DNA from: Aphrocallistes beatrix
Taxonomy: Eukaryota > Porifera > Hexactinellida > Sceptrulophora > Aphrocallistidae
Length of the DNA stretch: 64,000 bases
Direction: 5' to 3'
NCBI GenBank assembly: GCA_963281255.1
Contig: OY725504.1
Coordinates: 1,426,001 to 1,490,000 of the forward strand
Within the stretch, counting starts at the first letter, position 1. Every line of letters begins with the position of its first letter. Of the stretch, positions 1,318 through 47,712 are shown piece after piece. The notes beneath the pieces were generated by a model, which saw only the letters and a program-made list of their open reading frames with translations, had not been told where the DNA came from and searched no databases. Both the position numbers and the translations under genes were made by a program.

Positions 1318-1881
1318 ATGATTGCAACCTTATCACCACATCCATCCACTCCCACTCCACATAGAGAAGATAACACATTAGTTGATACGATAAGTGGATG
1401 GCCATCAGCTGGTGCAACAAGCAACCGACCACAAAGTACATTGGCAACCACCGATAAACCCCGTTTTTACCAGCGGCCTCTATCTTCTCGAACATATTCA
1501 AACTCTCAACATATTACTGATGTTTCTAATAAAAAACCTTACAGTAGTAGTATGCAGGTTTCAAGTCGTTACCAACCAAATTTAAATCCTAACTCTTTAG
1601 ATTATATGGCGACCAAAAGGCACTATTCTGCTACCACCCAAAGTGCTTGGGACGAAATTGACTGGAATAAAAAGCTTCATCCGACTTTTAAACAATGCAA
1701 CCCCCAATCGAATCAACATCCTGATCCAGTTGCTAATTCCAATAGAATTCCTCGCTATTATCCATCTTCTAACAATTGGCAAAAACTTGGAAACAGCTGG
1801 GATTACATTCAAACTAGAAAAAAATTGGAAATAAAGTATGGAGATGCAGAATTCATTAGCCCTTATAGAAAAAGCTTTCAG
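1318..1881 (+). CDS. Exon 1 of a two-exon gene, putative ciliary/sperm microtubule-associated protein
   Basis: An open frame starts at ATG 1318, just after an in-frame TGA at 1306-1308, and encodes 188 codons up to CAG|GT at 1881/1882. The frame runs only about 5 codons past that donor, as expected for an exon edge. The product is rich in Ser, Tyr, Pro and Asn, with no transmembrane segment, coiled coil or enzyme motif. It contains WDEIDWNKKLHPTF and a Tyr/Trp-rich tail. Exon 2 at 47377 starts in the same phase (0) and adds two PGYxG motifs, a feature of small proteins lining ciliary doublet microtubules (CIMIP2/FAM166-type). The family assignment is an inference from these motifs and composition. 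The donor (GTTGTT) is weak, so another donor or extra internal exons are possible. Confidence 0.6.
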
Positions 1882-1984
1882 GTTGTTTTTATATTATAAA
1901 TTTGTAAAGTTGTACAGCATTCTATACACTAAGACAAATTTTTAGTATATTCAGGTCTATTCACTAATTTAAATCAAAGTCCGT

Positions 1985-2985
1985 TGCAAGCACTCTAGGT
2001 AATATTCCTTAAAATGCAGTTGCCGGCATTCGAGCCACTGATATTACGTGAAAAGGCCTATATCCAAATTATGAAAATCTTTTTGATAATTACTACTTAT
2101 ACTCCGTAGCTCAGTAGCTTAACTCATTTATACAATTGGTCCGGCCATTCTAAAGTTGAAAATTTTCCATCCCGAATCCTTCAAACTATAGAAGCTGTTT
2201 GGAATTGAGCGACTTTATTTTTATTTAGGCTTGTTATCGTATTTTCATCTGATTTTCCTATTGTTACGGTACAAAATAATGCATTTGGGAGTTATGGTTT
2301 TTTGAAGACATAGAAAGCCTTCACAAATTTTTTGCCTTCTAAAAATCATCACTCCTAAATACAACCTTTTACCATCATTCTGGGCTAATAACAAGAAAGA
2401 TCCTAAATATGGCAACTCAATTCTTTACTGTTTCTCTACCTTTCGAAGGATTAGGAATGGAAATTTGGAAAGTTTCAACACAATTTAATCTGACCAATTT
2501 CAAACTCTTTGCTTAAAAAGTATCTCCAGGGCCGTTTCTGCTGTTTTAGTTAAGTGTTAACTAATTTCATTTTTTTTAACAAAATGTGTCCTTTTCACAA
2601 TTTTTGAAAATAAGCCTTTTTTCCGTAATATACCATTATGGTTTAGAAAATATTCGATTGCCGGCAGTTCAAGGTTTATAACTAGAGTGCATTTGTCGGC
2701 ACACCTAAGTCAAATTCCTTAAATCGTTGCCGGCACATTAATACTGAAAATTCGAATGCCGTTTTTGGAACTCTAGTCATTGTCTAAAGGCAAAATAAAA
2801 TCGTCTCCTGTGCAAGATAGACCATAGAAATATATTACCGAGTACATAATGTTGTGACCTAGAAGTCCTGACCGAGATAACGAATATTAAGGAATTCAAT
2901 TAAGGAGTATAGAAATATAAGCTTTGGATGCAAACAGTAAATGAGTTAAACTGCTGAGCTACGGAGTATAATAAATATGCAAGTT
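1985..2985. repeat. Decayed foldback repeat
   Basis: TATACTCCGTAGCTCAGTAG near 2098 is mirrored by CTGAGCTACGGAGTATA ending near 2971, each next to a variant of AACTCATTTA. TTGCCGGCA motifs occur near both arms (about 2020, 2660 and 2725). No coding sequence was found. It looks like an old palindromic element. 2985-3410 shows only AT-rich sequence with short A/T palindromes. Confidence 0.5.
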
Positions 2986-3512
2986 TAAGAGCCTATTGCT
3001 CCTTGCCTCTAGGTGTTCTACTTGGGGGCTACTGGGGTCTATATATCCTAGTCATAACAATAACATCAATTTTTTTGTTATCACCTTTTTGCACAAGATA
3101 TATCTAGGCCAAATTTGGATATTTTTTAAATTTGCCCTATTCAATACTACTAGTATTATTAATGTTTATTTATGAAATTTGACTATCAAATTGTTGTATA
3201 ATAATAAGCTCTTATATTTTTGCAAATGAATTATATTAGTGAATATGAAGCTGTTTACTATCAAATTGTAAAATTTGATAGTGCGAGCATTTATAGTTTT
3301 AAGATATAGTAAATAAACAAGCTTGGTGCAAAATCGGGTGATGACAAAGCACATTTTGATGTAGCGGATTCAAGTACTTTGATACATAGTATGATATAAT
3401 CTTGCTTATACACTACCCGGACAAAAGTATCCGACCACCACGAAAACCTCCATACTATTCTGTAGTCCTGTGCAAGAGATGAATTTACTTTATGGGGATA
3501 GCTTGAATATAC

Positions 3513-3737
3513 TGTTATAGTTGAGTATTAGTTCCCACTCTTGATTAGCTATTTAGTTTACACTTCGTTGCTTAGTTACCAACTGTATTCGACCACCCAA
3601 CTAGATTAGACCAGTAGGATACCTCTTATATACCGTTGCTCACTTACTACTCTATTATTTACTTTCTGTATTCATTCAAAATTGTAATATTAAAGTTCAC
3701 TTCATCTGATAATAACTTATCGTACTTAGCCGTAACA
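3513..3737 (+). repeat. 5' LTR of gypsy element 1, 225 bp
   Basis: Starts TGTTATAGTTGAG and ends CCGTAACA. It matches the 3' LTR (8498-8722) at all but two positions I could find. The target duplication ATAC flanks the element at 3509-3512 and 8723-8726. The sequence directly after the LTR (GAATATTACAATTTG) is not an obvious TGG-type tRNA primer site. Confidence 0.9.
3626..3632 (+). promoter_or_regulatory. TATA-like box in the LTR
   Basis: TTATATA lies about 110 bp before the end of the 225-bp LTR. It is conserved at the matching position in the 3' LTR. The role is inferred from position only. Confidence 0.4.
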
Positions 3738-3776
3738 GAATATTACAATTTGTTCGTTAACGACTACGATTAGTAA

Positions 3777-5411
3777 ATGGCAACTCATCACCCACTGACG
3801 ATCCCGCCCTTAATGAAAGACGACAGAATCGAGGACTGGCGACTTCTCTTCGAGGCAGGAGTTCGATATATTATTGAAGCAGAGGATGGTGAGAGGAAGG
3901 CTCTACAGATTTTACCGGCTTGTGTTAATCGAGATATAGCTGACAGAGAAGCAGTTCGAGACGTGTCGAAGAATGCCCCTTCCGTTAAAGAAGCTTTAGA
4001 TAAACTGGCAAGGATACTAAACCCCCCTGTTGACCAATTTGCATCTCTTCAGGAGCTGGGTAGGATGAACTGGCAACCAGGGATGGAGATAGGGGAGTAT
4101 TTCTTTTCAATTAAGCGTAAAGCGTTTTATGCCAAAATGGGCATGAAACATGTAGCATCGATCTTAGCGATGCAATTACCGAGAGATGTGCAAAACAAAA
4201 TCAAAGAGAAAGTAACCTCTATCAATGATGATTTAGAACACGAAAACGCCCATGATCTCATTCTTCAAGTAAAGACGGAACTCGTAAATGCAGGACATTC
4301 GCTAACGGAAGGAAACCGTAGTTTCGATACAGTGTCCAAGGTCGCAGTGGCTGAGAAATCTCGAAAATGTGAACAAACAGACCGATTAGACGATAAGAAT
4401 AATTTTGATCTAGAAGTTAATTGGACACGCGGACGTTATGCACCTGATAATCCAAAAGGAAGAAAATATCCACTAAACTCTCGGTACTATGTAAAGAAAC
4501 AAGAAGGCTGCTACATTTGTGGAAAAGACCATTTCTGGCGCTATTGTCCAGATAAAAGATGTGCCAAATGTGGAGAGAGAGGACATACTATGCGGGATTG
4601 TAAGGGTAATCCCACATCCTCCAAAGGAAATCAAGTAATGGCGGCAGAACCCAGACCAGGAGAGGTAGGAATGTCAGTAATCTCACCAATCAGACTGTCG
4701 GGTGAACACGTCAATGCGTTACTTTACAGCGGAGCGGGCCCTTCGGTCATCGATAGAAGAACAGTGCACGATTTAGGACTCGAGCAATTCATGGATGTTA
4801 GAGAAGGCGAAGTATACGGGTTGTCGCATGAACCAGTAAAAGTGATCAGGAGTCTCAAACTTACAGTTGACTTAGGCGATCAACAAACGTTAGAACATCA
4901 GTTCGAAGTAGTTACTGAAACCGGACCGACCTGTATATTGGGACGTAACTTCCTCAAGAGGTTCGGTACAACCGAATTCGATTGGGCGAAAAATCAGGTA
5001 CGCCTAGGGGTATGGAAAACACCGCAAGTAAGAGTGGAAGGAGGCGAGCCACTATCAAGAGCAAGTGTAGCCGCTATAGAGAACTGCGAAGCGGACCGAA
5101 CCATTGGCGAATTTCAGGACGGTTTCATAATTTGTAGGAGGTTATCCGATCAACAGCGCTTATTAATAATTGAACTCTTGAACAAATACCGCAACATCTT
5201 CGCTATTAATCCCAAAAATCCCAACCCAACAAAAGGAATGAAGCACCGGATTGTTACAGGTGACGCACAGCCGATTAAGCAGAGACCCTATCCAGTAAAC
5301 GCTGAAATGGAAAATGAAATCGACAGACAGGTAGTGGAGATGCTCCAGAATGACATTTGTCGCCCCTCAGATTCTCCTTGTGCCAGCAGATTGATAATTA
5401 TTAGTCACTAA
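3777..5411 (+). pseudogene. gypsy element 1: gag, zinc knuckles, protease and start of reverse transcriptase (broken)
   Basis: A 544-codon frame starting 39 bp after the LTR. It has a helical gag-like region (residues about 1-190), two CCHC knuckles at residues about 245-275 (CYICGKDHFWRYC and CAKCGERGHTMRDC), a retropepsin-like domain (about 300-410; flap and ILGRNFL motif seen) and the start of the reverse transcriptase (KQRPYPV region). Two defects are visible. The catalytic Asp of the protease is Tyr: LLYSGAG at 4725-4727, where the family has DSGA or DTGA. A frameshift near 5395-5412 ends the frame inside the reverse transcriptase. The polyprotein is therefore not functional as read. The domain order is typical of Ty3/gypsy. 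Confidence 0.85.
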
Positions 5412-6930
5412 ACGAGATGGCTCCAAAAGGTTTGTCGTGGACTATCGTATACTGAACAATGTAACTCAAACGGATAGCTATCCTATGCCTAACCCTCGGG
5501 ATATTCTGGACCTATTGAATGGGGATGTTTACTTCAGTACACTAGACTGTGCCAGTGCCTATTGGGCGATCGAAATAGCAGAGGAGGATCAACATAAAAA
5601 TGCATTTGTCTGCCCCAGAAGTTTGTTTGAGATGAACATAATGCCATTTGGTTTTGTAAATAGCCAGTCGAGCTATCAACGCCTCATGGATACCACTTTC
5701 AAGAACGTTAAGCATGCCGAACCATGCATTGACGATATCTGCGTCCACTCTAGAACTTTCGAGCATCATCTCGAGGATCTCGAGTCAGTATTTCAGGCCC
5801 TGGGAAATGCAAATATTCAGCTCAGGAAAGAAAAATGTAATTTCGGGTTCAGGGAAGTTGAATTCATTGGCCATGTAATATCGCACGATGGCCATCATCC
5901 CACGCCACGCCTCCTCGAGAAGATCCGTGATGTTCAACCACCTAAAGGGAAGAAGGATCTGCAGAGGTTTTTGAGCTTAGCGAATTTCTCCAGGGATCAC
6001 GTCCCAGGTTTTGCTCAAATCGCTGAACCCCTATATAAACTCACTCAAAAGGAAATACTGTGGATATGGGACAACGCAGCTGATAATGCATACTCCGCAC
6101 TTAAGAGGGAACTTACTGATATCCCTGTAATTTTGGCTTACCCTAATTGGAAAAAGGAGTTTCTCTTGCAAACGGACGCCTCATCTATCGCAGTCGGTGC
6201 CGTACTGTCACAAAGAGATGAAGAAGGACATATCAAGCCAATTTCTTACTTCTCTTCTGGACTCACACCCGCTCAGAGGAACTATTCCGCGGGAGAATTG
6301 GAATGTTGGGCTCTTATTGCTTCAAGTAGAAAATTCCAGAAATATTTACAGGGAGCCCCTGGTGTGGTATTTTTATTCGACTACAATCCCCTTATCTGGC
6401 TGAAAAAGCAAAAGGATACTCGTGGGAAGTTCACACGATGGGTGCAAGAGTTAGAGGCATTAAATTATAAAGTAGAATACATTAAAGGGAAAAATAATGT
6501 TACTGCAGATTGCCTGTCAAGATTACACTCAAAAATCGATGAAGGTATTAACGATGAAAATGAACACTTCGAAAGACATCTCTATTCTATCCTAGACGAG
6601 GAGGCTAACCTAGTTCAAAGGCTAAAACAGGCACAGGAAGCCGACGGAGTGGTAAGTACTGCATCGAATCAGATCAGAGAGAAGGGAGCGATTTCAGAGG
6701 GGCAGTTCAAGAAAGATTTTGGCATGGCGATTACCAATGGACTTCTTTACATTGGGCTAAATATAGTTGTCCCTTCCGCGATGAAACATTATTTTGATGT
6801 CGCATATCTCCCGTGGTCTTCTGAAAATCACCGGTACTTCCTTCTCATGGTCGATGGATTCTCCAAGTTTACAGAACTTGTCCCCATGCCAAATCAAGAA
6901 GCCGAAACAATAGTCAACGCTATATTAACT
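5412..6930 (+). pseudogene. gypsy element 1: reverse transcriptase, RNase H and N-terminal integrase (broken)
   Basis: Continues the polyprotein in the next frame from about 5412, with the first Met at 5437. Reverse transcriptase motifs include YFSTLDCASAYW and MPFGFVNSQSSYQ. The catalytic box reads CIDD at 5725-5736, where YxDD or FxDD is usual. RNase H follows with QTDASSIAVGAVLSQ and YSAGELECWAL. A later motif normally written DHNP reads DYNP. Integrase begins near 6570, but its HHCC zinc domain is missing: the frame jumps near 6798 from a residual KHYF straight to the core (DVAYLPW, LLMVDGFSKF), indicating a deletion. The frame is then cut at 6930/6931 by a MITE. Confidence 0.85.
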
Positions 6931-6931
6931 A

Positions 6932-7516
6932 CAGTCGAGATCGGGTTATTTTGACACCGGGTTTTTTGTCCCATTGGGTTATTCTGTCGTCAAGTCAGTG
7001 TAAAAATTGTTTTATTCATACAAGGCTGGATTCGGTTAACCGGTTAACCGCCGTCAATCCCGGTTAACGGTTAAGGAAATCCTCGATCGGTTAACCGATC
7101 GGCTTTATTTTATAAATATTTACACTAATTTCATTGTTTTTCTACGGAGATTCATGAATATTGCTTCTAAAAATTTGATAATACAGTATAATTCCTATTT
7201 TATAATCATATAATATATTTCGAGACCACTGAAAATTATAAAATTATTAATACCAGGTTAAAGATTAGTCCAAAAATCCATATTTTTACTAATTTATATT
7301 GACATCGGTTAACCGGTTAACCGCCCTGGAGGAAACCAAAATGACTGAACCCTAAAATCGGTTAACCAACCCCAGCCCTGATTCATAATTCAATTATAAA
7401 ATAATCGGATTTTTTTGTCTATCGGGTTATTTTGTCTACCGGGTTATTTTGTCTATCGGGTTATTTTGTCGTTTTGGCAGTGCAATCAAATGGACAAAAT
7501 AACCCGATTTCGACTG
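6932..7516. mobile_element. MITE inserted in the gypsy integrase, 585 bp
   Basis: Flanked by TA (6930-6931, 7517-7518). The left end is CAGTCGAGATCGGGTTATTT and the right end is the reverse complement of CAGTCGAAATCGGGTTATTT. GGGTTATTTTGTC is repeated several times next to the ends. The interior holds palindromic GGTTAACCGGTTAACC blocks. There is no coding sequence. Superfamily by TSD and ends: Tc1/mariner-type. Confidence 0.9.
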
Positions 7517-8430
7517 TAATTGGATCTATAGGCACGGTCCGCCTAGAATTATGATCAGCGATCAGGCCCCGAATATGGACGGTGACAGACTCAAGAAAAT
7601 GTTATCCAAATTTGGAGTTGAGAAAAGGCATAGCTCTCCATACCATCCTCAAGGGGACGGCCAGGCTGAGCGCGGAATCAGAAGTACCAAGCAGATAATG
7701 CGTTGTATTCTAAATGAACGGAATATCCAGACGAACAGTTGGGCGCTCCTGTTGCCGGAGGTTAATTACCTAATTAACACAACTCCGAACGCGAGTACCA
7801 AGTATTCGCCATACAAGGTCTTCTATGGAACTGACCCGAAGCAGATATGTACAGCATCTGTTGATTTAGAAATTCCAGTTAACTATAAATCTGTTCAGGA
7901 GTGGATTAAGGATGTTACGGAGATAGAGGAGTTAGTCAATCAGAGACCTGGAACAATCAAGGGAAGTAATGAAGAGAAACTACGACGTTGGGAAGTCTAA
8001 TTCCGTAATTGAAGCTGGTGATTTCGTACTGATAAGAGACGAAGTCAGGAGAGACTGCCTGGAACCCTTGTACAAATGCCCTTTTTGTGTGCTAAAGAGG
8101 ACAGGCCAGAATATCAGAGTACGGATCCACGATGGAAAGGAGAAAGTGATCCACCTTAATCGGTGCAAAAGGTTTATACATGATATGGGATTTCCGTGCA
8201 GCGATACTAACATGTCAAACCCTCCAGATCAGGGTTCTGACCCAGCCAGCGAAGGGGAGATCGGTTTATCAGACCAGGATGAAACCGATGTTGTCAACAC
8301 AGAGCTTATGGAGGGACATGAAATTGGATTTACAGATTTAACGGATTCCAACATTCAGAGATCGAGTCGTATAAGGAGGAAGCCTCAGTGGCTTCAGGAG
8401 GAACAATGGCCAGATGACTGGTCCCCGTAG
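7517..8430 (+). pseudogene. gypsy element 1: C-terminal integrase (two frames)
   Basis: The integrase core resumes directly after the MITE, with the second Asp in MISDQAPNMDG and the Glu in the HPQGDGQAERG stretch. One frame runs to 8000, and a second (7969-8430) carries the C-terminal part, so there is a frameshift near 7970. The second frame has a GPY/F-like module (YKCPFCVLKRTG, with Cys at the usual Gly) and an acidic tail ending near the polypurine tract. Across the MITE junctions the reading frame is compatible once the insert and one TA are removed, so the MITE arrived in an already open integrase frame. Confidence 0.85.
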
Positions 8431-8482
8431 CACTTCAGGTTTTGTAGTGCCCCACCCGCCTCCCGTAGCGTCTCTTAGTTTT

Positions 8483-8497
8483 TTGGAGGGGAGGTGA
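8483..8497 (+). other. Polypurine tract of gypsy element 1
   Basis: TTGGAGGGGAGGTGA lies immediately before the 3' LTR, the expected plus-strand primer site for reverse transcription. Confidence 0.75.
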
Positions 8498-8722
8498 TGT
8501 TATAGTTGAGTATTAGTTCCCACTCTTGATTAGCTATTTAGTTTACACTTCGTTACTTAGTTACCAACTGTATTCGACCACCCAACTAGATTAGACCAGT
8601 AGGATATCTCTTATATACCGTTGCTCACTTACTACTCTATTATTTACTTTCTGTATTCATTCAAAATTGTAATATTAAAGTTCACTTCATCTGATAATAA
8701 CTTATCGTACTTAGCCGTAACA
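8498..8722 (+). repeat. 3' LTR of gypsy element 1, 225 bp
   Basis: TGTTATAG...CCGTAACA, followed by the target duplication ATAC (8723-8726). The differences from the 5' LTR that I see are CGTTACTT versus CGTTGCTT and GGATATCT versus GGATACCT, giving under 1% divergence. Confidence 0.9.
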
Positions 8723-9189
8723 ATACTAATTCATCCATGGTTCAAAACCTAACGAAATCACCATTGCCCTAATGCAGCGGTTCCCAACCTTTTCGGTCAC
8801 GCTACCCTCAAAGTACTTACAATTCTGTATAATTATGATGTCTAGTCTTAACTTAACTATACATGATGGTAATGAGTAGTACCACCTGGTAGCACTAGGT
8901 GATAATTGCATACATAGTAGAAAGAGAATATAGTAATAGGATTGAAATACTCCAATTTGAATGCATAGAATTAAAATATTAATTCAAATAGAGAGTATCT
9001 TTTACAATATGGAACAATTTTCGCTTCATCAATATGCACATTTTGGGATTATTTAATTGGGAAACAGCACTTTGCTCAAATACTATTGTCCGGGCAGAGT
9101 GTATACATCCTGGTAACTCCGCTTAATCTGGATATCTCGAGCCCTGAAATTTTATTAGCGTAGTTCCGCATTAACCGATGAACTAGTTT

Positions 9190-9275
9190 CTACAAGCGTG
9201 CTTTGCGCGCACTTGTGTAGTACGGCTAACGAACACTTCGCGTCCGCAGGGTTGCCCTGCGAGCGTCTGGAGATA
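9190..9275 (-). repeat. Family H 3'-tail fragment
   Basis: CAAGCGTGCTTTGCGCGCACTTG followed by GC-rich CGTCCGCAGGGTTGCCCTGCG is a variant of the family H terminal hairpin and tail on the minus strand, preceded by A. 9276-9900 is AT-rich with no gene I can support. Confidence 0.45.
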
Positions 9276-10987
9276 TTAAAAAATTATTAATATTGATTAC
9301 TTTCCCCAATCCCATTTCGATATTTCCTTAATTAATAGTAAATATTGACCACATAGTTTAGGAAATATGTAATTCGGAATTTACACCCTTAATAAGTATC
9401 CCCTGGTCAACTGCTGAATGCTAGTCTCTAGCATATTTTTGAGATATGTTTACTTTATGATCCCTTGTAAACGAAGTGAAACAAATTTTATTTCATATCG
9501 TCCCGAAAATATGATTTGGGATTCGATACTACTAAAAACCCCAGGTGAGTTTTTCAAAGCTAGTCTCTAGCAATTTTTTCTAAATTCGTCAAAACGTGTG
9601 AAAATGTACACATTATATTTTTTATTGCTATACACTATTAAAATTAACATATGTTTAGTGTTTCTGTGAAATTATAAACTCACTGAAGTTCGAAAGTCGC
9701 GGTCTCAATTTGATTTGAATGCATTTTCGGTCTCAAAAATGGAACTGAAACTAACACTTGAAGTCAAACCGGAACTATTAGATAGCATTCGGGGATATTT
9801 AGGGAACCTAAATTTTAGTGATTAAATAGGTTGTTTTGAAGCATTTTTCACTATATTGAAAATTCCAGACACACCCTAAAATTCCCCATGAGTTATGCAA
9901 AAATCTACTACATACCCTACGACAACAGAGAGGGGCCTAAATTTAAAATCCATAAAAATTGCTATTTATAATCGATGTATATTCAGAAAATGTATTATCA
10001 ATGTATAGTATATCCACCCTAAATAATCGTTTGACCTAGTCAGATCAAGTCTATCACTTTTTATTCATTCATTATGACGTCATCACATTCATTCGAGTCA
10101 GGTTATTTAAGTTTGAGATAGATACATCAAATATATTATCATTGTATAGTATTTCGACCATAAACAATCGTTTAACCAAGTCAGATCATTTCTCTTTTCA
10201 TTTACTCATTATGATGTCATAGCACCTGTTATGTGATGTTAGTGTTCACTACGTATTTATAATACTATGGACTGTCGACTCTCCTACTCGGGTCTTTAAA
10301 ATCGGGTCCATTGTTATTATTGATATCTCGTAATCCACTCAAGTTAGACATGGGAAATGTATTATTGTTAAATAGGAAGTCATATTTTTGGAATCCATTG
10401 GTCATGTTGGCTGACCTCAACTATGTGTGGAATCTGAGTTATGTGGTTTTCACATCTGTTTTTCACAGATTTAAGATCCATTTTGGCGATATTCTGTATT
10501 AGATAGATAATAGGCTTAAAATTTAATACAACAAAATGTAAGAAAGTACCGTATTATCTATCGAATACAGTCAAATTTGAATGCATAGCTAAAACGGTTT
10601 TCAAGATATAGGCTCAAATGATCAAAATGCGTTTCCATAGCAACGATGGAATGTAGCAACATTCCTTTAGAAAAGATCAATTTTATCGAATCAACCCGTC
10701 CCCACCTTGATTATGTTTTAAAATCATACATTAAAACGCTTTAAAATGTGTTTAAAACAGGTCAGAATATCACCAAAATGGATCTTAAATCTGTGAAAAA
10801 CGGATGTGAAAACCACATAACTCAGATTCCACACATAGTTGAGGTCAGCCAACATGACCAATGGATTCCAAAAATATGACTTCCTATTTAACAATAATAA
10901 CAATTGACCCGATTTTAAAGACCCGAGTAGGAGAGTTGACAGTCCATAGCAGTGTTTCTCAAACTAATTTAGCACACCGCCCCCTAA

Positions 10988-13146
10988 TCAGGATTTTACT
11001 GTCGACACTGTAGGGAACGCCAAAGTCAGCAAATTCGCCACCTTCCACATTTGGGAACTTGTTTCGTGTTGACATTTCCGGCCAAAACCGTTCATAGCCC
11101 ATCTTTTTAAACCGACTTTTTTTTCACAGTCGTTATGCATATCGCTTAATTCTTCTTGCAATTCTAGTGAAACTTCATCAATGTCCACACTAAATGGGTC
11201 AATAATCCAATCAGGTGGTTTAAGTTCCAGCAAATCTGTAAATCTCTTAATTTTATCCTCTTTAAGGACTTCGAGATGTTCGCAGTATGCTAGTAAGCAG
11301 GGTTGTTTTGATTTAAATCATTGATTTAAATCATGATTTAAATCACTTAAAAAAATCAAAATCCTGTTATTTGATTTTTTTGGAATATATTTCCTTTTAG
11401 AAATTTCTTCAATGTTTCTTATTTGATAAAAGTGTGATGGCTTTTGTACATTCAAAAGTTAGGAATAGATTAGGTATAGCTAAAGCAGGAAAATTAGTAT
11501 TTATATACAAGCTGCTGAATACTCATAAATAATTTCTTCTAGTTCTACATACATTAATACATACTCTAATTTTTCGCTTTCTTCATTAATATTTATTCTA
11601 ATTTTTCGTTTTCTTTCACTAAAACATTCTATTATACGTAGATAATGTTAAATTTATTCTAGAATTCTATTTGATTATGAGTAGATAAAAATAAACAGAA
11701 GACTAAATGATTATAGATAAAAATATATAAAAATCTAATTTAAATCAAATAAATCTGATTTAAATCAAATAAATCATGATTTTTGATTTTTTTAAAAAAA
11801 TCATGATTTTTTTCCAACCCTGCCGCGCGGCGGCGGCGGCGGCGGCGGCAGTGAGTGAGTAGTAAGTCATCCTCTGTAAGATTGAGCTCTGCTAAACGAG
11901 GAAACTGATAATATTCCCGTCGACCAATGTTTTGTTTAGATAACTTTAGCTTTAACAATGGTTTTACATTTAACTAGAGTGACTATGTTGCCTTGTAGTT
12001 GCAGGGTTCATTGTGTTAAACTTCTCATATAAGTCAGTTAAGTAAGCGATATCAGATTTTGTCGCTAGAACAAGCTGCATTAACTCCAGGTTGTCTTCCT
12101 GTAAGAATTCTACAATGGTGTCAAATAGGCTGTAAAACCGGCAGAGACATTTTCCTTTTGAAAGCCATCTCACTTCGGTGTGTAGAAGCAGACGTCCGAA
12201 TTCCATTTCGTTAGTATGACAGAGTTGGCGAAATATTATGTCCTTGAGTACAGAAGACTTTATTTTATTGACAGCTGTTATGACGATATGCAAAGAGTTG
12301 TGTAGGCGATGACTAAGGTGTTTTGCTACTAAATGTCCTCGATGAACGACGCAGTGCACGACGAAAACGTTAGGAACAGCATTTTTCAAGTATGCAATAA
12401 ATCCACGATGTCGGCCGACCATAGCAGGAGCCCCATCGGTGGCACTCACAATAATATTACACAAGGGGATTTCTTTTTCTTGGAAGAAATTATCCACGAC
12501 TTTGAAAATGGATTCACCTTTTGAATCAATCAAAAGAGGTCTAGCAAACAACATTTCTTCGACCAAATTATCTTCCTGAATAAAGCGGACATATGCAAGG
12601 AGCAGTGCTTCGTTACCTGGCATTGTGGATTCATCGATTTGAAGCGAAAATTCCGTCGTTTTAAGAATATCGCAGATTGTTTTCTCGATGTCATTAGCCA
12701 TTATATGTATTCGCTTCGTCACAGTATCATTACTCAATGGAATTGACTTAATCAGACTACGCCCGTCCGTATGCATGACATTGGTAACTGCTTCCTGGAT
12801 TGCGGGCAGAATAAGTTTTTCACCAATTGTATGTGACTTTCCAGCTTTAGCAATTAGTAGCGAAATGTTATACGATGCAATCAAGCCATCATCGTTTTGT
12901 GAGTCCACTTTTCTGAACATGTTGCCCATCGTTTTGCGATTGTCTCTCAAGTTAATGAAAAATTCTCTTTCTTGTCACTGTGACGGGATTTCAAATGATC
13001 GATCATTCTTGATGGCTTCATTCCTTCATTAGAAAAAACTTATTCGCAAAGCAGGCACATTGGGAGTTGTTCATTGCTTGGAGATTTAACAAAACCATAT
13101 TTTATATAATCAGCACTATATTGTCTACATTTCTTTTTACTGTTCA
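10988..13146 (-). pseudogene. BED-finger hAT transposase (ZBED5/FAM200-like), broken
   Basis: Read on the minus strand from about 13146: a BED-like start (MNSKKKCRQYSADYIKYGF, then CLLCE with the pairing His residues in DHLKSRH), interrupted by a stop and a frameshift near 12960-13070. A 326-codon frame follows (11970-12950) with the hAT catalytic region: LQIDEST, ATDGAPAMVGRHRGF, VHCVVHRGHLVAKHL and the HTEVRWLSKG motif typical of ZBED5/FAM200/Charlie-type proteins. The hAT C-terminal dimerisation region is at 10988-11290 (AYCEHLEVLKED and LELQEELSDMHND), ending shortly before the element end. A nested MITE at 11298-11858 separates the LTEDDLL part from AYCEH. Nuclear DNA transposase by family; inactive as read. 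Confidence 0.85.
11298..11858. mobile_element. Nested AT-rich MITE in the hAT transposase, with a GGC repeat at one end
   Basis: Starts CAGGGTTGTTTTGATTTAAA and has the inverse end TTTTTTCCAACCCTG at 11822, with many ATGATTTAAATCA units between. A further 36 bp of GCGGCGG repeat and GTGAGTGA follow before an imperfect 8-bp duplication (CTAGTAAG at 11290-11297; GTAGTAAG at 11859-11866). The split transposase codons on both sides fit this duplication. hAT-type by TSD length and ends. Confidence 0.7.
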
Positions 13147-37939: not shown

Positions 37940-38275
37940 CAGCGCTGTCCAACAGGCGGCCCGCGGCCTTGCTTTGTGCGGCCCGCGTTGCCTGCTTCAA
38001 TCTCCCCCTTTTTTACCCACTTTTAGACAAATTCTCCAAATTTTTCCATATCATGCATCTCGTTTTCTCATTAGTAGGGGCATAGGGACATAGGGCTGAT
38101 GGACCATGGTCCTACCAATTCTTTTCAATAGATATTAGCTTCTATTGTTCACGATACAAATTGTCCAAAATGCTTCTATCCATACCCATCCCGAGTGCAC
38201 GCCCCTGTATTGCGGGCCGCCACTAAATGGTATCAAGCAGTTGCGGCCCGAAGTAAATATAGTTGGACAGCCCTG
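37940..38275. mobile_element. hAT-type MITE, 336 bp
   Basis: CAGCGCTGTCCAACAGGCGG and the inverse AGTTGGACAGCCCTG. Perfect 8-bp duplication TACTATAT at 37932-37939 and 38276-38283. GGCCCGC motifs sit near both ends. Confidence 0.92.
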
Positions 38276-38348
38276 TACTATATGATCTGATTACGAGTGT
38301 AGGTCAGGATGTAGGTCAACTCCTGGAACCCATGGGTGACAGAGGTCA

Positions 38349-38600
38349 GGGGCCGTATTCACTAACATTTTAAGTTCGTACTTAAGTTCGAACTTAGTAC
38401 TTAAGTACTAAGTTCGAGCTTAAATGGTATTCACTAAGATAAACTTAAGTTCGTACTTAAGTATGAACTTTAAGTAACCTAGTTAAAGCAATAAGTTCGA
38501 ACTTAACTCGTTTTTGCCGAGATCGGTATTCACTGAGATTTAAGTATATGCTTAAGTTTAGACTAAAGTTACAGCTTTAAGTAACCTCCAGAGGTGGCTT
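38349..38600. mobile_element. MITE with GGGGCCGTATTCACTAA terminus, partial
   Basis: Starts GGGGCCGTATTCACTAA, followed by many AAGTTCGAACTTAA-type palindromes. The other end is not visible; related sequence with the inverse end lies at 43500-43535. Confidence 0.6.
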
Positions 38601-38610
38601 TAAATATTCG

Positions 38611-40626
38611 TTAGCTTCTTCTAATTATCGACATATAGTCTATTTTTATTAATGAAGTATCAACACTTCTGACTCGGCGGCAATCACACACATGGGCACT
38701 TGTGCATCCAACCTCATGGTGGTCAGCGGCTCCCTTCTCTGCGATCGCCTCTTGTTTTCTGCACATACTGGACATGAGGCACAGTAACTCTCTATCGTAG
38801 ACCTCATCTTTACCCAAAAGAAGCGGTCCCTCATGTATTCAAAGTTCTTCTGGATCCCAGCATGGAGAGGCGGTGCGCAATTCCGGTTACTTCTTTCTGC
38901 AGTTCCCGAGGAACTACCACTGCTTGTCCCTTACATAACCTTCCGCCATGGTCTAGTCGCATGTCCCGCTGATTTCTAAATGGACCTGAACTCACTCTGG
39001 CCAGCCTGAGGTTCTTGAGTTGCTCGATAGCATTCCGGATATCAGGTTCAGCCTGCTGTGCTGCCATTATCTTATTCTGCAGAGGAACTATTTCATCCTC
39101 CACGAGATAAACAAACCTCTCGAAATATTATTCTTCATCCTCAATATTCTCATCTCGTGTCACTTTTGGGAGCCGACTTAAAAAATCTGCGGCGCCGTTC
39201 TCTGTACTTCGTCTGTATTCGACCTCGTAATCGTACGCTTCGAGCTCGAGCAGCCATCGTGCGAACTTGTTCCTTGGGTCCTTTTGCCGACGGAGCCATA
39301 CGAGCGGATTATGGTCCGTGATAATAATGATTTTCTTTGCTGCCCTCAAATATGTACGCCACCTTCTCATAGCCGCCACGATTGCCCATGCCTCTAGTTC
39401 CCCTGCCGCGTATTTTGTCTGAGCCTGGTTAAGTCCTGCTGAATAGAATTCAATAGGCACTCTCTCACCCTTCCTTCCCATCTGAGTTAAGACCGCCCCT
39501 ATTGCGTTACTCGAAGCGTCGGTCTCCAGGTAGAAGGGTTCATCCCACTTGGGGAAGGCGATTACCCGGGACTCATGTGTTAGTAGGTTTTTTATCGATA
39601 CAAAAGATGCTTCACAACTCGGAGTCCAATCCCAAGCAATCGCGCTCCTAGTCAAGCGATGCAAGGGCTCAGCCAAAGCTGCAATTCCTGGAACGTACTC
39701 TCTGTACCAGTTCACCAGGCCCATGAATCGCCTGATGTTTCTCTTGTTAGCAGGTCTTGGCCACTCTTCTATCCGCGAGAGCGTAGCTGGTACCGGCCGT
39801 CTTCCTTGCCTGGATATCAGGTGTCCCAAGAACTGAACTTTCCCGTATGCAAACTTGCATTTATCGGCTCTGAGTTGGATCCTAGCCCTGGCCAAACACC
39901 CAAGCGCTCGTTCCAAATGCGTTAGATGCGAACTGAAGTCACTGGAATGCACTATGGTGTCATCCACGAACGACTCAGCATTCATAGCTTCTCTTAAAGC
40001 GTCGTCGACAGCTCGCTGATAGGTGGCCTGCGAATTGCAGAGGCCAAAGGGCATCCGGTTAAACTCAAATTGGCCTCTTGTCGATACGAATGAGGTATAC
40101 TCCCGGTAACCTCCCGAACTGGGATACTCAGTATGCCGACGCGCCATCGAGTGTCGAGAATACTTCGCTACCCTCCATCCGGTCGAATACGTCCTTGGAC
40201 TCCGGCATTGGGTATTTCGACCGCGAACCTCTGAGTACCGTCCTTCTTCCGAACAAGGATAATTCTGCTCCCCCAAGGGGACTCCGACGTCCTGATGATA
40301 CCGTTCCTACTCATCTCGTCGATTTGTCTCCCAATCTCTGCCTCTGTGTCTGTAACGCGCGATGGGGATCAGGAGGGCGGTCCAGATTCTGGATAAGTAT
40401 ACTAAGCGCTGCTTCTACATCTCCTGTATCGAGATGTTCTGATACCACCTCAACTACCAGTTCTCGCTCCGCCAAAGTCCTAGAGATGTGAACTGGCAAC
40501 ATCTGGAGCGATTTTTTTCCGCCTCCAGGTTGCCAGAATTCCTGCAGTAGCCGCGTCAAAAAGTGGCTTCCATTTTGCGATCCTCTCGTTCGTACACAAC
40601 TCTGGAATCGTCATCCGTTCAGCCAT
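38611..40626 (-). pseudogene. gypsy element 2, internally deleted and frameshifted
   Basis: Minus strand. The gag start MAERMTIPELCTNERIAKWK is at about 40626. A deletion then removes most of gag and the protease, with RRKKSLQMLPVHISRTLAER joined by about 40310 to reverse transcriptase. Reverse transcriptase includes RNGIIRTSESPWGSR, FSTLDGASAY (another frame), FNRMPFGLCNSQATYQ and an intact FVDDTIVHS active site. RNase H has YLETDASSNAIGAVLTQ and ITDHNPLVWL. Integrase H2C2 follows (38650-38830, YCASCPVCAENKRR), and the copy stops near 38611. No LTR was found at either side. The sequence is more GC-rich than its surroundings. It is related to but distinct from element 1. Confidence 0.85.
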
Positions 40627-40744
40627 GGTATATTATCAAATTAGAATTGTGTGATAAAACAGGAATGTTCCGCGATCAGGAAAACACTAAGTTTGATAGA
40701 ATTCTAATTTGAGAAATGACAATACTAGTAAATATTCGTAGTCA

Positions 40745-42515
40745 ATATATACTAGAACCATAGCCTACTCTAATAATGCCTCACAGTAAAATAACCAAGG
40801 ATGCGGTAATAGCCGAATGGATTAATACACGATTAGCCTAAAGTCGTCAACCATGTAGGATGGGCATTAAGAATGTATTACCAGAATATATAAACATGGC
40901 ATCAAATAACATATATCCGTTGTCAAAATTTCGATTCGTCATCATATCATTGCGCAACAGGTCATTTTAAGCACGATTTTGGCAATTTTCTAAGCTGTTT
41001 TAACCCTATTTCTAAATGATATTAAGGTGTGATTTTTGTGTAGAACCAAGATTAGTACGAGTTGCTTTGAAAAATTTGGAATTTTTCAATGGAATGTTGC
41101 TACATTCCTGCGTTGCTATGGTAATGCATTTTGGTCAGCTTGGGCCATATCCTGCAAACTGTAAGAACTAGGTCTTCAAATTTGATTTTATTTGATAGGC
41201 AATTGGCTACTTCCTATTAGTTAATAATACAATTTAAACTTCGAAAATTCACAGACTATAGAGTTATGAGACAATTTAGTGTTTTGGTCACATTCTTAAA
41301 ACAACCCATAACACAAAACTCGTTGAATTTAGAAGTTCAAGTTGTATTAAGGTGACAGGCCGTCAAATTTTGAAAAAAATTGCCAGAACCAAATATATTG
41401 TAATTTAGTTTTTATTTAATTCTAAGATGTCTAAATAATCCGATAATCAGATATTTTGTCAATCCGATGATTGTTTATGTACTTGTAGCAGGTAGAATCT
41501 GGCCTTTCTCAATCAAAATCTATTAATTTAAATTTTTTAAATTTTCAATTGGCGCACATCCGTTTGATTACCCTAACTCAAAAAATATTCACATTTTAAA
41601 CGCAAACCTATTGGAAAAAACACGCTAAATCATCCGATTAAGCTAGTAGCGATTTTCAAATAGAAGAAAAGTTTAAAAACTGAAAATTATTTTGTCCCAA
41701 AAATTCCTAAGTAAATGGCTCGACAAAATATTTTTCAACATAAACAATTATTAAAGTTAAAATTGAACAAAATAGCTTCGCTACTAGCTCAACCATTCGC
41801 TAATAATGATATTTGAACAGTAAAATCAACCTGATCCTAGTCAATAGTTAGTTATGACGAACGGCACAACCACGGATATTGTATAGGATTTAGACTTTGA
41901 GTAACTATAACTTCATATCTATTCCTAGTTCGCAACTCATATAATGCATTAATTCTTGTACTAACTAGTACTATCCAAAAACAGTATAACAATGGTTGAA
42001 TTAAGACTTTGATTTTTTGGGGTTTTGTCTCCTTAACACCTAATAGGAAGTAGGCCATTGCCTATCAAACACGATCGAATTTGAAGATCTAGCTACTACA
42101 GTTTGCACGAAATGGCCCAAACTGACCAAAATGCTTTACCATAGCACCGCAGGAATGTAGCAACATTCCATTGAAAAATTCCAAATTTTTCAAATCAACT
42201 CGTACTAATCTTGGTTCTACACAAAAATCACACCTTAATACCATTTAAAAATAGGGTTAAAACAGCTTATAAAATCGCTAAAATTGTCCTTAGAATGACC
42301 TGTTGCGCAATGATATGATGACTAATCGAAATTTTTCCAACGGATATATGTACTTTGATATCATGTTTATATATGCTGGTAATACATTCTTAATGCCTAT
42401 TCTGCATGGTTAACGATTTCAGGCTAATCATGTATTAATCCATTCGGCTATTACTTCATCCCTAGTCCATGATTTTCAGTCTACTGTGAGGCATTATTAG
42501 AGTAGGCTATGCTAG
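40745..42515. mobile_element. Large foldback element, about 1.77 kb
   Basis: Left arm about 40745-41220 starts near AGAACCATAGCCTACTCTAA and is inverted at about 42050-42515. The arms share ATCATTGCGCAACAGGTCAT-type sequence, AAGGTGTGATTTTTGTGTAG and the core TGTAGC/TACATTCC. The centre (41220-42050) carries no gene. Single arms of the same family lie at 45335-45455 and 51360-51620. Confidence 0.8.
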
Positions 42516-42604
42516 AACATACACAAGCCTACAGTGTTACTAGAGCATACTCCTACTGAGGTGAATATGACTTGTTGATACTCTCTAGGTAACCTAGTTA
42601 CCTG

Positions 42605-43535
42605 ACACTTAAGTTCGAACTTAGTTAAGTTTAAACTTAAGTTCGAACTTAAATCTTAGTGAATACAATTTAAGTTCGAACTTAACTAAGTTTAAACTTA
42701 GTACGAGTACTTACAGGGTGGCTCATAAGTTCTGATACAAGCTTCATTATGTATAAAATGATTTATACTCAAACTATCTTGGCTATTATGATCTTTAGAG
42801 ATTGTAATTAGAATATTCTCAATGGTTTTAATAGATTTATCGAGTCTAAGACCTGGAACTGTGTTTTGTATGGTGAGTTTTATGGGGAAAAAATGTGTCC
42901 TGGCACGCAGCGAAAATCGAGAATCAAGGTCTCTACTTCTGTAAAAAATGTCTTTATAATCGATGTCCTATGGCGATTTAGCACCAGATACCTTTCATTC
43001 ACCATGGAAATATTTCATAAATTCATTGAATTAATTATCAGAAACGAGAGAAAGTTATTATTTCACGAGATCAAATTAGGTACATTTTGCAAAATACCCA
43101 AAATTGCACTTTTTTTCACATCACCTGAAATCTGATCCAAATGGTTCTCAATATGTACCTGATATAAACATCCTATATTTCTACAAATTTAGTGTTCGAG
43201 GGAAATGTGAGAGCCAATTTTTCGTAGAATTTGAAGACTCTAGAAAGATCATTTGAAAAGCAGTGGGTCCTGATACTGGATTTTCGATGTATGCCAGGAC
43301 GCATTTTCCCCCCATAAAAATCACCTTACAAAACAGTTACAGGTCTTAGACTGGAAAAGTCTTTTATTTAGAATCTCTAAAAACCATAATAGCTAAGATT
43401 GTTTGAGTATTAGAAATTTTATACCTAATGAAGCTTGTCACAGAACTTATGAGCCACCCTGTAAGTACAAATTCTTAGTGAATACGGGTTTTGCTCCTAC
43501 TTAACTAAGTTCGAACTCTTAGTGAATACGGCCCC
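42605..43535. mobile_element. AAGTTCGAACTTAA-rich MITE interrupted by a foldback MITE
   Basis: Repeated AAGTTCGAACTTAA and GTTTAAACTTA palindromes flank the insertion at 42714-43461; the right end is CTTAGTGAATACGGCCCC. A single end of a related unit also lies at about 45840-45898. Confidence 0.6.
42714..43461. mobile_element. Foldback MITE, CAGGGTG family copy 2, 748 bp
   Basis: TA|CAGGGTGGCTCATAAGTTCT and the inverse at the right with TA. It shares the arms of copies 1 and 3. Confidence 0.9.
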
Positions 43536-43609
43536 AGAAGCCATAACCAAAAGCCTCCCACTTGCCAAAAATCAGCTTTATGTGACCGGCAGTTTCTTCT
43601 ATATATGTA

Positions 43610-44383
43610 CAGGGTGGGGAATAAGTTCTACCACAAGCTTCATTAGGCATAAAATTTCTTATACTCAAACAATCTTAGTTATTATGGTCTTCAGAGATTG
43701 TAATTCAAATATTCTCAATGATTTTAAAAGATTTTTCAAGTCTAAGACCTAGAACTGTGTTTTGTATGGTGAGTTTTGTGGAGAAAATATGTGTCCTGGC
43801 ACGCAGCGAAAATCGAGAATCAGGGCCCAATGCTTTTCAAATTATCTTTCTAGAGTCTTCAAATTCTAGGACAAATCCGCTCTCACATTTCCCTCGAACA
43901 CTCTAAATTTGTAGAAATATAGGATGCTTAGATCAGTATATATTGAAAACCATTTGGATCAGATTTTTTGATGATGTGAAAAAAAGTGCCATTTTGTGTG
44001 ATTTTGCAAAATGTACCTAATTTGAACTCGTGAAATAATAACTTTATCTTGTTTCTAATAGTGAATTCAATGGATTTGTGAAATATTTCCAAGGTGAATG
44101 AAAGGTATCTGGTGCTAAATCGTCATAGCACATCGATTATAGAGATATTTTTTTACAGAAGCAGTGGCCCTGATTCTCGATTTTCGCTGCGTGCCAGGAC
44201 ACATATTTTCTCCACAAAACTAACCATACAAAACACAGTTCTAGGTCTTAGACTTGAAAAATCTTTTAAAATCATTGAGAATATTTGAATTACAATCTCT
44301 AAAGACCATAATAACTAAGATTGTTTGAGTATAAGAAATTTTATACCTAATGAAGCTTGTGGCAGAACTTATGAGCCACCCTG
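43610..44383. mobile_element. Foldback MITE, CAGGGTG family copy 3, 774 bp
   Basis: TA|CAGGGTGGGGAATAAGTTCT and the inverse AGAACTTATGAGCCACCCTG|TA. Inner arms are nearly identical (TATACTCAAACAATCTTAGT). Confidence 0.92.
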
Positions 44384-44393
44384 TATATATATA

Positions 44394-44845
44394 TCCTTAC
44401 TATTAAGTAAAACTCGATTAATGTGTATGTGTATACTATATACACTTGTATGTATATATATATATATATATATATCTGTAACGAATTGATTGAAGAAACT
44501 GCCAGGCGCAGAGAGCTGATTTTTGGCATGTGGGGATCTTCTGGCTATGGCTCCACTAAGTTCTGAGCTCAGAAGAAAATGTCGACTCATCATGGAATTA
44601 TGACGTCATTGTCACCTTTTTTATTAGAAATTTCAGTTTTTCGACCATAACTCAGCCATTTAAGTGATAAAAGGCTGAAATTTTAATAGAATGTATATAT
44701 TAATATTATTCACATGCGATACAACTATAATCAAAAAATAATGACTCATCAGTCTGTTATGACGTCAACGTTACGCATCAAAACTTTCAAATTTTGTGAT
44801 TTTTGCTGCAATATCGATTATAACAGTTGGACAGATTATTTGAAT
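44394..44845 (+). repeat. Family H copy, most of the unit
   Basis: A|TCCTTACTATTAAG, then TGTATGTGTATAC and a long TA run, TGTAACGAATTGATTGAAG, AATTATGACGTCATTGTCAC, GATACAACTATAATC, and a second TGACGTCA near 44760. The tail is missing. Confidence 0.85.
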
Positions 44846-44960
44846 ACTTCAATTCTATGACTAATTCGAATGCGTAGATTCCGAGTCTTAAAATCAGATT
44901 ATTTGTATCTCTTCGAGTTTGATTGTATCTTTTTTCATGAAGAGATCCAATTTACTACTA

Positions 44961-45292
44961 CAGTACACCCTCGCTAATCCGAACAGCTCTGTTCCAATGA
45001 TCGAAAAAATCGTTCGGATGAGTGAATTTGTTCCGATTAGAGAAATAACACTAATTCAATAGGGCATTAATAATAATAAATTTGTATTGTTAGAATATTA
45101 TGGATATTATTTCGCTGTGATTGCTTATTTAACGAGGTTTCTCAATCTTATTGATAGATTTAAGTTTATAAACGTTTATTCAAAGCATAAAGGCGAATAA
45201 TATTATATTTTGGGTGTTCGGATTTTAAGAATGAAGTGTTCAGATTAGCAAGGGTTCGGATTGGCGAGGTTCGGACTATCGAGGGTGTACTG
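44961..45292. mobile_element. pogo-type MITE, 332 bp
   Basis: TA|CAGTACACCCTCGCTAATCC and the inverse of CAGTACACCCTCGATAGTCC with TA; CGAACCTCGCCAATCCGAAC motifs at the right end. Confidence 0.9.
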
Positions 45293-45929
45293 TATTTGTA
45301 TGGGAAATAATAAACCGTTCAAATACATTTTACGGCTAGTATAGTATGCTGATAATACATTCTTAAGGTCTATTCTACAAAATTAACGATTTAGGATTAT
45401 CATGTATTGATTCAATGAACCTTCAGCCTCATCCCTGTTTAGTTATTAGTCTTTATTTTCCAGTCGTTTATGCTGTATGTAACAAATTAATCGAAGAAAT
45501 TGCGAGTTACAGAAATTTACTTGTCAGCACACCCGATCAGGGGCGTATTTCATATCTAAAAGTAAGCGTCGCTCCGAAATACTGCGCCATTTTCTAAAAT
45601 TCTGCTTCTTATGTAGCATGATCTGCGAGAAACATTGTATAGCATAATAATGCAAATTCAACATTTTGAATTTTTATGATGAATAATCGTCACTTTACCA
45701 CATATAATATTTATTAAAGGGTGCCAAGGTATATGGTTAAACATTTATTGTTGGAAATTTCTTCTATCACTTTTCATTATCGAGTTATTAAGTTTCTTGC
45801 ATATTGTAGAATATAATCCTTATTTGGATTAGATTAATCTAACTCAGTACGTATAAGTTTAAGTTTAAATTAAGTAGTTTGAGTGAATAAGGCCCCTGGT
45901 TTTCCAAAACGCGAATATGTTTGCTGTGG

Positions 45930-46113
45930 CAAACATAAAATTGACAAATTTGATAATTTTTCGAGTGATATCGATTATAACAGTAAGACATACGTATTTA
46001 GAGATGTTATCTACCATATAATTAATCAATGTTAACCTAGACGCCCAAAGGGCGCCTCCGGCGGACACAAAGTGTCCGCCAGCCGCGCTGCGGAAGCAAG
46101 CAAAGCGCGCTTG
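45930..46113 (+). repeat. Family H copy, 3' third with a clean tail
   Basis: TTGATAATTTTTCGAGTGAT, AAGACATACGTATTTAGAGA, GCGCCTCCGGCGGACACAAA hairpin and tail AAGCAAAGCGCGCTTG|T. Confidence 0.85.
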
Positions 46114-46324
46114 TTAATAATTATTGTGCCTTTGAATTTGTTAGATTACTTGGTTATAATCAAAGTTGATATCTTAGTAATAGTTACCCCTCAACCCCCA
46201 TTATTGGATAATTATCCTTATGGATTCTCACCGAATTGGCTATTCTATTCATTGAACGTGAAATTGTAAACTGTTTGTATTTAACAAATGTTGTTTATGT
46301 GTTTGCTTACAAGCATTGTAACAG

Positions 46325-46625
46325 TAGAAAAATTGTTCCAGTATTTCAACACTTGATTCTTTCCCATACAAATAATGCTAAAATGGCACTATTCATGAAG
46401 AGGGTTACTTCTAAACGGTATGGGAACAGCTAATCGGATTCCAGATTCGAATAATACGCATTCAAATTATTTACAGGTTAATTTTTCTAATTAATCATTC
46501 ATTCCTAACTTTTTGTAATAATCAATCAGTGTCACCTTATGCCACATACACCCATCATGAAAAAATCCGATTTAGTATTATTTGTATGAGAAAGAATCAA
46601 GTGTTGGAATGCTTTTGTCCGGTTG
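46325..46625. mobile_element. Probable Tc1-type MITE
   Basis: TTCAACACTTGATTCTTTCC with CATACAAATAATGCTAAA (left) mirrors TTTAGTATTATTTGTATGAG with AAGAATCAAGTGTTGGAATG (right, ending GCTTTTGTCCGG). The interior resembles the MITEs at 27960 and 32829. The exact ends are uncertain. Near 46745-46777 lies a single hAT-like end (inverse of CAGTGCTTCTCAACTTTTT). Confidence 0.55.
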
Positions 46626-47376
46626 GTATATACCTACATTAACCGTTGAATCCTTACAATAAAATGTCTTGTAGAATATATCATATGCAGGTGTGACTTG
46701 AAATAATGATTTTATTTAAGTGTGCCGCAATGAGAAAAAAGTTGAGAAGCACTGGTTTAGACTTACGTCAATAATATACAGTGACTTGGATATTTTCCCT
46801 AACAAAATGCTTTGTATTTCGCAACGAAATGCTTTTGACAATGAGGTAGCACAAATGAATCGAGTTTTAATTTTAAGGATAATTGTTTTAAATTTTTAAA
46901 AATATTCCTTAATTTAGATTTATTAATTTACCTTTAATATGAGGAGTAAAATACGTTTTGTTTCTTCAAAATAGAAATTTTATTAATTCAGGATCTTTCT
47001 CAAATGATTTCATTACAAAATTTCAAGTCAATTTCGGTAAGACCTCGAATAAAAAACATGTTTCAGTCCAAAATTACCTCCAGTGAAGGTGGGAATGCTT
47101 CTCATTATTTGAAGAATCAAAGCTGGTACTTTGATGTATACTGGGATTTATGAGTTTGTTATTACTTAAGTATCGCATTAAAGTTTTAAAATGTCAAGAT
47201 TAATTAAAATAGCAATAATGATCATATATGCGGTAGCCAAATATTAATGCGAGTGGTGGAGCTGAAATAAGTTTCCAACAATCAGCGGCTAAATGTATAC
47301 TAATTAAAGAATATTTTCTAAATGTTAACACTCTATTTTGACAAAGTTCATATGCTTTTCTTTGTTTTGTTTTTAG

Positions 47377-47712
47377 GTACCTGGGTATACGGGTCATAGT
47401 AGATTAGGTTTGGATGATAGCTTTGGCAGAATTCAAAGGGAAATAAATATTAAAAATTCTAACCATTTTTTTTCCTCAAAAACATCGAGGGATGCTAATA
47501 TTCCTGGATATTCTGGATGCCAGCACTGGACTCAGACCCGACCTACACATCATGTAATGAACCACAAGGGTATATATTCGTCCACCACTCCTCGTGAATA
47601 TGTTTCTTTTCATTCTCAATATTCTAGACTGTCTCCTTTCGCACGGAATGGCCTTCTTTCAAAAATGGTCACTTTAACTAATCCTTACAATCCATTTATT
47701 AATCAGCCTTAA
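47377..47712 (+). CDS. Exon 2 of the putative ciliary/sperm microtubule-associated gene
   Basis: Begins after TTTTGTTTTTAG with GTA CCT GGG, in phase 0, and runs 111 codons to TAA at 47710-47712. Without splicing it has no ATG near its start, supporting an internal or terminal exon. It contains VPGYTGHSRLG (first residues) and IPGYSGCQHWTQTRP about 40 residues later, two PGYxG boxes of the kind found in ciliary microtubule inner proteins, then a Ser/Tyr/Pro-rich end with FARNGLLSKMVTLTNPYNPF. No enzyme motif or membrane segment. Joined to 1318-1881 it would give about 299 residues. Pairing with exon 1 is inferred from phase, composition and strand. Confidence 0.65.
   Translation, partial: VPGYTGHSRLGLDDSFGRIQREINIKNSNHFFSSKTSRDANIPGYSGCQHWTQTRPTHHVMNHKGIYSSTTPREYVSFHSQYSRLSPFARNGLLSKMVTLTNPYNPFINQP

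Follow-up and report, generated by a model that had tools for sequence, protein, structure and literature searches.

Can two short open reading frames that lie 45.5 kb apart, with transposon-rich DNA between them, belong to one gene? The question is raised by a locus of the hexactinellid sponge Aphrocallistes beatrix (assembly GCA_963281255.1, a genome of 100.5 Mb in 28 contigs), found in a window of 64,000 nucleotides that comprises positions 1426001-1490000 of the 3.6-Mb contig OY725504.1 (C18) and to which the coordinates given here refer unless stated otherwise. A model that had been given only the letters of this DNA and a list of its open reading frames had predicted that both frames are exons of a single gene, with an ORF of about 300 codons around an intron of 45.5 kb. 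It is very likely that they indeed are the two coding exons of one SPMIP7 (SPATA48) gene, as the homology of the joined protein suggests, and that this gene contains a 45.5-kb intron rich in mobile DNA. The gene as such is already known, and the inflated intron is unusual in comparison with the gaps surveyed here, yet of a known kind.

The two frames and their junction

Both frames are found on the plus strand. The first (1318..1881) has 188 codons and thus a length that is a multiple of three, and it ends in phase 0 with ...AGC TTT CAG|GTTGTT, which is the CAG|GT donor at 1881 that had been predicted. The second (47377..47712) has no ATG of its own, follows an acceptor that reads ...TTTGTTTTGTTTTTAG|GTACCTGGG, with the exon starting at 47377 after TTTTTAG, and comprises 111 codons (to 47709) and the stop codon TAA at 47710-47712, again in agreement with the predicted phase-0 start at this position. 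The intron between them (1882..47376, plus strand) would have 45,495 bases, GT...AG ends and phase 0, and the phase-0 join results in 299 codons without any stop or frameshift. The likeness in composition that had been pointed out for the Ser/Tyr/Asn/Pro-rich frames is borne out by the residue percentages, with Ser 13.8%, Pro 9.6%, Thr 8.5%, Asn 8.0% and Tyr 5.9% in exon 1 and Ser 12.6%, Thr 8.1%, Asn 8.1%, Pro 7.2% and Tyr 5.4% in exon 2, and the two PGYxG boxes that had been noticed are both encoded by exon 2, at residues 190 (PGYTG) and 231 (PGYSG) of the joined protein; exon 2 also carries the SPATA48 domain.

A search of the joined protein against ciliary microtubule inner proteins had been suggested together with the prediction, and it is this kind of search that now gives the formerly only "ciliary-type" gene its name, as it identifies the product as the microtubule inner protein SPMIP7 (SPATA48). 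The Pfam family SPATA48 (PF15073) is matched with 61.7 bits (E 1.1e-16, cut-off 27), and among 177,635 distinct PDB sequences only two match at E up to 10, both of them SPMIP7 (2.3e-20 and 5.1e-20); we take these chains to be mammalian. Exon 2 alone is also above the PF15073 cut-off, with 52.3 bits, which is lower than the score of the joined protein, and for exon 1 alone Pfam has no match up to an E of 10. In the PDB, exon 1 alone has three matches, SPMIP7 being first and second (2e-5, 0.0045) and a potassium channel third (0.99), and exon 2 alone has eleven, again with SPMIP7 as first and second (3.7e-10, 4.3e-8), followed by a chain named SPATA48 (0.26) and eight unrelated ones from 0.31 upwards. 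The better SPMIP7 alignment spans residues 81-296 of the query, includes residues 81-188 of exon 1 as homologous sequence, and passes without a gap through the junction 188|189, which is positioned inside a conserved motif (FISPYRKSFQ|VPGYTG, compared to FVSPSSRSKYIPLYTG in SPMIP7). Intermediate coding exons within the intron were set aside, because the SPMIP7 homology crosses the junction gapless.

The choice of the splice sites was addressed with a profile built from two SPMIP7 fragments, by which joins of 17 GT sites in the exon 1 frame with 36 AG sites around exon 2 were compared; 213 of these joins are open and 178 have a reported score. The top join is 1881/47377 with 83.0 bits, the second is 1884/47377 with 79.7 bits, and the next one has 62.2 bits, compared to 27.9 bits for exon 1 by itself and 44.9 bits for exon 2 by itself. 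As the profile was made from the very proteins that named the gene, this comparison tells about splice sites and not about the identity of the gene. The pairing goes beyond chance, since SPMIP7 is the top PDB match of each half independently and 1881/47377 is the best of the scored joins. GT-AG ends, a kept phase and an unbroken homology over the junction, as they belong to a two-exon gene with one long intron, are all found, and we infer that 1881 is spliced to 47377. The protein encoded by each exon finds only itself in the 100.5-Mb genome, at a single place each, and PF15073 has one match genome-wide at E up to 10, which points to a single orthologue rather than to one of several paralogues.

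Several points weigh against this reading. The donor at 1884 nearly equals that at 1881 (79.7 versus 83.0 bits), and by the counts described below, between 29 and 65% of the intron has not been traced to mobile DNA. Residues 1-80 of the joined protein have no significant alignment in the PDB search, the significant SPMIP7 alignment beginning only at query residue 81 and chain residue 218, and no counterpart of residues 1-217 of mammalian SPMIP7 was found, although upstream exons were not systematically sought; it is therefore possible that there is an upstream exon or another start. A codon-usage test gave no coding support, with both exons below background, but as it failed also on two other genes of the region, an SDA1 homologue and an FG-GAP protein that it likewise put below background, and as three of seven dynein frames had scores below zero once they were excluded from the training set, it is uninformative and says nothing either way.

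Concerning the ends of the gene, an in-frame TGA (1306..1308, plus strand) is present just past a possible acceptor TTCCAG (1300-1305). If this acceptor is used, the protein would begin at the ATG at 1318, and TTCCAG could be either a cis acceptor of the 5' untranslated region or a trans-splice acceptor. On the other side, a possible polyadenylation signal AATAAA (48008..48013, plus strand) is found about 295 bases past the stop codon. No RNA family was matched at gathering score anywhere in the window.

The content and size of the intron

The original prediction regarded the intron as almost entirely mobile DNA, and this is shown for only 35.5%, 61.1% or 71.3% of it by increasingly generous counts. 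The lowest value includes only matches of at least 50 bases to 134 kb of the region and to 34 other loci (119 kb), and by the same count 0% of exon 1, of exon 2 and of the SDA1 gene match DNA elsewhere, compared to 43.3% of the stretch 47713-61600. As the DNA after the gene is by this count at least as repetitive, the content of the intron looks ordinary for its surroundings. The value of 61.1% is reached when transposon-like frames and one complete long terminal repeat (LTR) element are added, and that of 71.3% when the interiors of stretches bounded by inverted repeats are included as well. Fifteen intron stretches of at least 500 bases have no match in the compared 134 kb and 119 kb, although some of these stretches bear transposon-like frames. 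At the two ends of the intron (its first 1.6 kb and its last 0.7 kb), the matches to other places in the genome are only short or partial; in the whole-genome DNA searches just the best 40 candidates were scored, so that a missing match there says little. The frames 11973-12974, 20339-21856, 22358-23821 and 22071-22472 were called transposon-like from a general likeness or from flanking inverted repeats; for the first three, a Pfam scan at E up to 0.01 gave no match, and the fourth was counted without such a scan.

The elements themselves begin with a stretch at 2097..2971 that is bounded by 34-bp inverted repeats (94% alike) and likely represents a small DNA transposon. It is followed by a Ty3-type LTR retrotransposon (3513..8722, plus strand) with 225-bp LTRs (TG...CA) that differ at 2 of 225 positions and with a 4-bp target duplication, ATAC; its reverse transcriptase and RNase H matches exceed the Pfam cut-offs, those to aspartyl protease, zinc knuckle and integrase do not, and its coding frames do not form a single open frame. 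Further inverted pairs are found inside a nested stretch (9903..16766) with inverted repeats of about 225 bp (96%). A transposase-like frame of 334 codons (11970..12974, minus strand) presumably resembles hAT/ZBED5-type proteins but has no Pfam match. The element at 18630..24834 (minus strand) has 186-bp terminal inverted repeats that are 99.5% alike, the 9-bp target duplication CAAGATGAC on both sides, and two frames (506 and 488 codons) that match no Pfam family, and it is likely a young DNA transposon. Three remnants on the minus strand follow, which are of MULE type (25435..26563, with a MULE transposase match just over the cut-off and a FLYWCH match over the cut-off), of a transposase that we assume to be mariner-like (37190..37912, with a weak HTH_32 match below the Pfam cut-off), and of a second Ty3-type polymerase (39128..40306, reverse transcriptase and RNase H). 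A dispersed repeat (44857..45330) recurs at 39 other genomic places, 87-98% alike, as judged from the best 40 of 6,448 candidates. Judging from the near-identical LTRs (2/225), the terminal inverted repeats (99.5%) and the 9-bp duplication, some of the insertions in the intron are probably recent.

Two smaller repeats were also seen: a stretch of 80 bases near the 3' end of the intron (47208-47289) has at least 27 relatives genome-wide with 78-89% identity, and a repeat of about 300-450 bases, which often forms inverted pairs, has many copies in the window and its flanks (e.g. 14668-15713).

For a comparison of intron size, gaps between neighbouring pieces of dynein heavy chain genes were surveyed. 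The domain DHC_N2 (PF08393) has 48 matches in the genome, 44 of them over the cut-off alone and two more with their neighbours, and it covers dynein heavy chains without separating axonemal from cytoplasmic forms. The survey used 40 of these 48 and considered gaps between neighbouring DHC_N2 pieces within 6 kb; the other eight, some of them partial, had no neighbour to form a gap. The resulting 28 gaps have 46-2,570 bases with a median of 167.5, and 23 of them have at most 582 bases; in five cases the two pieces do not differ in open-frame length, and these gaps may not be introns but were kept in the count. The intron of 45,495 bases is about 18 times as long as the longest of the surveyed gaps, but as the survey by design excludes gaps above 6 kb and also too-weak pieces, it does not tell whether long introns are rare across the genome. 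Five dynein heavy chain genes on contigs C1, C3, C7 (two) and C9 (loci L011, L012, L018, L023 and L016) each form one open frame of 4,124-5,039 codons, and others in this genome are broken by short gaps, so that intron-free and intron-bearing dynein genes exist side by side; the single-frame genes are possibly retrocopies or a result of intron loss.

Predicted expression of the gene and alternative explanations

If the two exons form one SPMIP7 gene, transcription would start before 1318 and end at a poly(A) site past 48008, covering about 46.7 kb. The intron 1882-47376, the sole intron in the coding part as far as this was found, would be spliced out, and the resulting mRNA would encode about 299 residues. 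This removal is deduced from the homologous junction. As in its mammalian relatives, the protein would lie along the inner wall of doublet microtubules, be it in sperm flagella or in motile cilia of another kind, a role suggested by family membership, and the PGYxG (PYG) boxes would grip the microtubule lattice, as can be expected from the family. The intron was probably once short and then grew as LTR retrotransposons and DNA transposons inserted again and again, some of them recently and some in a nested fashion; these insertions appear to have been tolerated, as the splice sites and the coding exons stayed intact. It has little probability, though, that the transposon-swollen intron times or limits the expression of this sperm-tail gene, as has been discussed for axonemal genes on the Drosophila Y chromosome.

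One may also suspect that the gene is disabled or truncated because the intron blocks full-length transcripts, with exon 1 reading through or the transcript ending at a poly(A) site of a transposon. The exon 1 frame runs on for only a few codons (VVFIL) to a stop at 1897-1899, and the complete LTR element and other elements of the intron could supply signals of their own, but both exons are open, the joined frame is uninterrupted and both splice sites are intact, whereas exon 2 should be decaying if it were dead, which makes such a loss of function very improbable. Even smaller is the probability of an assembly artefact in which the exons truly are close to each other and transposon sequence has been misassembled between them: repeat-rich DNA is prone to misjoins, but the contig spans 3.6 Mb, and two elements have matching target duplications (ATAC and CAAGATGAC) and intact termini, like real insertions. 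That two separate genes contribute the exons, which would stand in the same order by chance, is the idea to which the distance lends itself, as 45.5 kb contrasts with the surveyed dynein gaps of at most 2.6 kb. Each exon occurs only once in the genome, however, and the halves match consecutive parts of one protein in the same order, strand and phase with a gapless join, and this explanation is therefore already nearly excluded by homology.

A single SPMIP7 gene with a large intron would be an example of a small, conserved sperm or cilia gene that can be recognised by eye in spite of 45 kb of transposon-rich DNA between its exons; gene finders that allow only short introns could miss it or split it. 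It represents a clear case of a large intron with recent insertions where the surveyed dynein gaps are short, which is useful for questions on splicing and tolerance.

Related systems, neighbouring genes and the mitochondrial code

The sponge protein shares with SPMIP7 (PDB 8otz, 9fqr, 9v10) the C-terminal domain, the motifs FxSP...P.YTG and ANIPGY(S/T)G, and a C-terminal SxMVT...PYNPF, but unlike the SPMIP7 chains with their 440-441 residues it has only 299, and its first box is PGYTG where both SPMIP7 chains have PLYTG. The PYG repeat, with its consensus of proline, tyrosine and glycine, has been defined in microtubule inner proteins (PMC10973386), and a table of that paper places SPATA48 (SPMIP7) in the PYG group together with FAM166A-C and C10ORF82, whereas its text names four human PYG proteins without SPATA48 among them. 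SPMIP7 has been identified in mouse sperm doublets (PMC13066092), and there is a supposed link between it and male infertility (PMC12808527). Repeated PGYxG boxes are also a feature of the PYG proteins FAM166A-C (CIMIP2), C10ORF82 (SPMIP5), FAP129, FAP222 and FAP252 (PMC10973386). A difference from these PYG proteins is that PF10629 (CMI2B-like), which has four matches in the genome, exceeds its cut-off at three other places and not at the SPMIP7 gene. The presence of such CMI2B-like matches and of dynein heavy chain genes in this genome is in line with the proposed microtubule inner protein.

In Drosophila, the introns of the Y-linked axonemal dynein genes kl-2, kl-3 and kl-5 extend over hundreds of kb up to Mb (PMC11207136), long introns in these kl genes are also described in PMC6508621, and giant introns, transposable elements and cilia come together in one paper on the Drosophila Y chromosome (PMC9031259). 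Like the kl genes (PMC11207136), the sponge gene would be an axonemal (sperm-tail) gene with an unusually large, repeat-rich intron. Unlike them, it is very small and has a single intron of 45.5 kb with dispersed transposons instead of intronic satellite repeats, and 45,495 bases fall short of what is defined as gigantic in Drosophila (hundreds of kb to Mb; PMC11207136). Among the papers listed for SPATA48 and SPMIP7, no title or abstract start deals with the intron of this gene, which is no proof of absence in print.

The SDA1 homologue of the window (61647-63548, minus strand) is a single open frame of 633 codons (SDA1_HEAT, 2.1e-82). About 11-13 kb upstream of the window, a frame of 677 codons (L006:6907-8937) matches FG-GAP over the cut-off and has weaker beta-propeller matches, and it is probably a neighbouring gene.

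The mitochondrial contig of the assembly (C28, locus L045) encodes a COX1 with 11 in-frame TGA codons that reads best with TGA as Trp. When it is aligned with a COX1 chain from the PDB, conserved Ile is the counterpart of many ATA codons and Lys that of three of four AAA codons, and the 11 AGA codons fall on Ser (5), Gly (3), Ala (2) and Asn (1), as read by eye from the first alignment. The code thus seems to be read best with TGA as Trp, ATA as Ile and AAA as Lys, and AGA is probably Ser. Presumably, this fits neither the usual invertebrate table (ATA as Met) nor the flatworm/echinoderm table (AAA as Asn). In acoel mitochondria, ATA is reported to encode Met (PMC5431833). The gene order on the contig is nad3-cox1-cox2 (by eye), and the codon readings of its COX1 are consistent with an animal.

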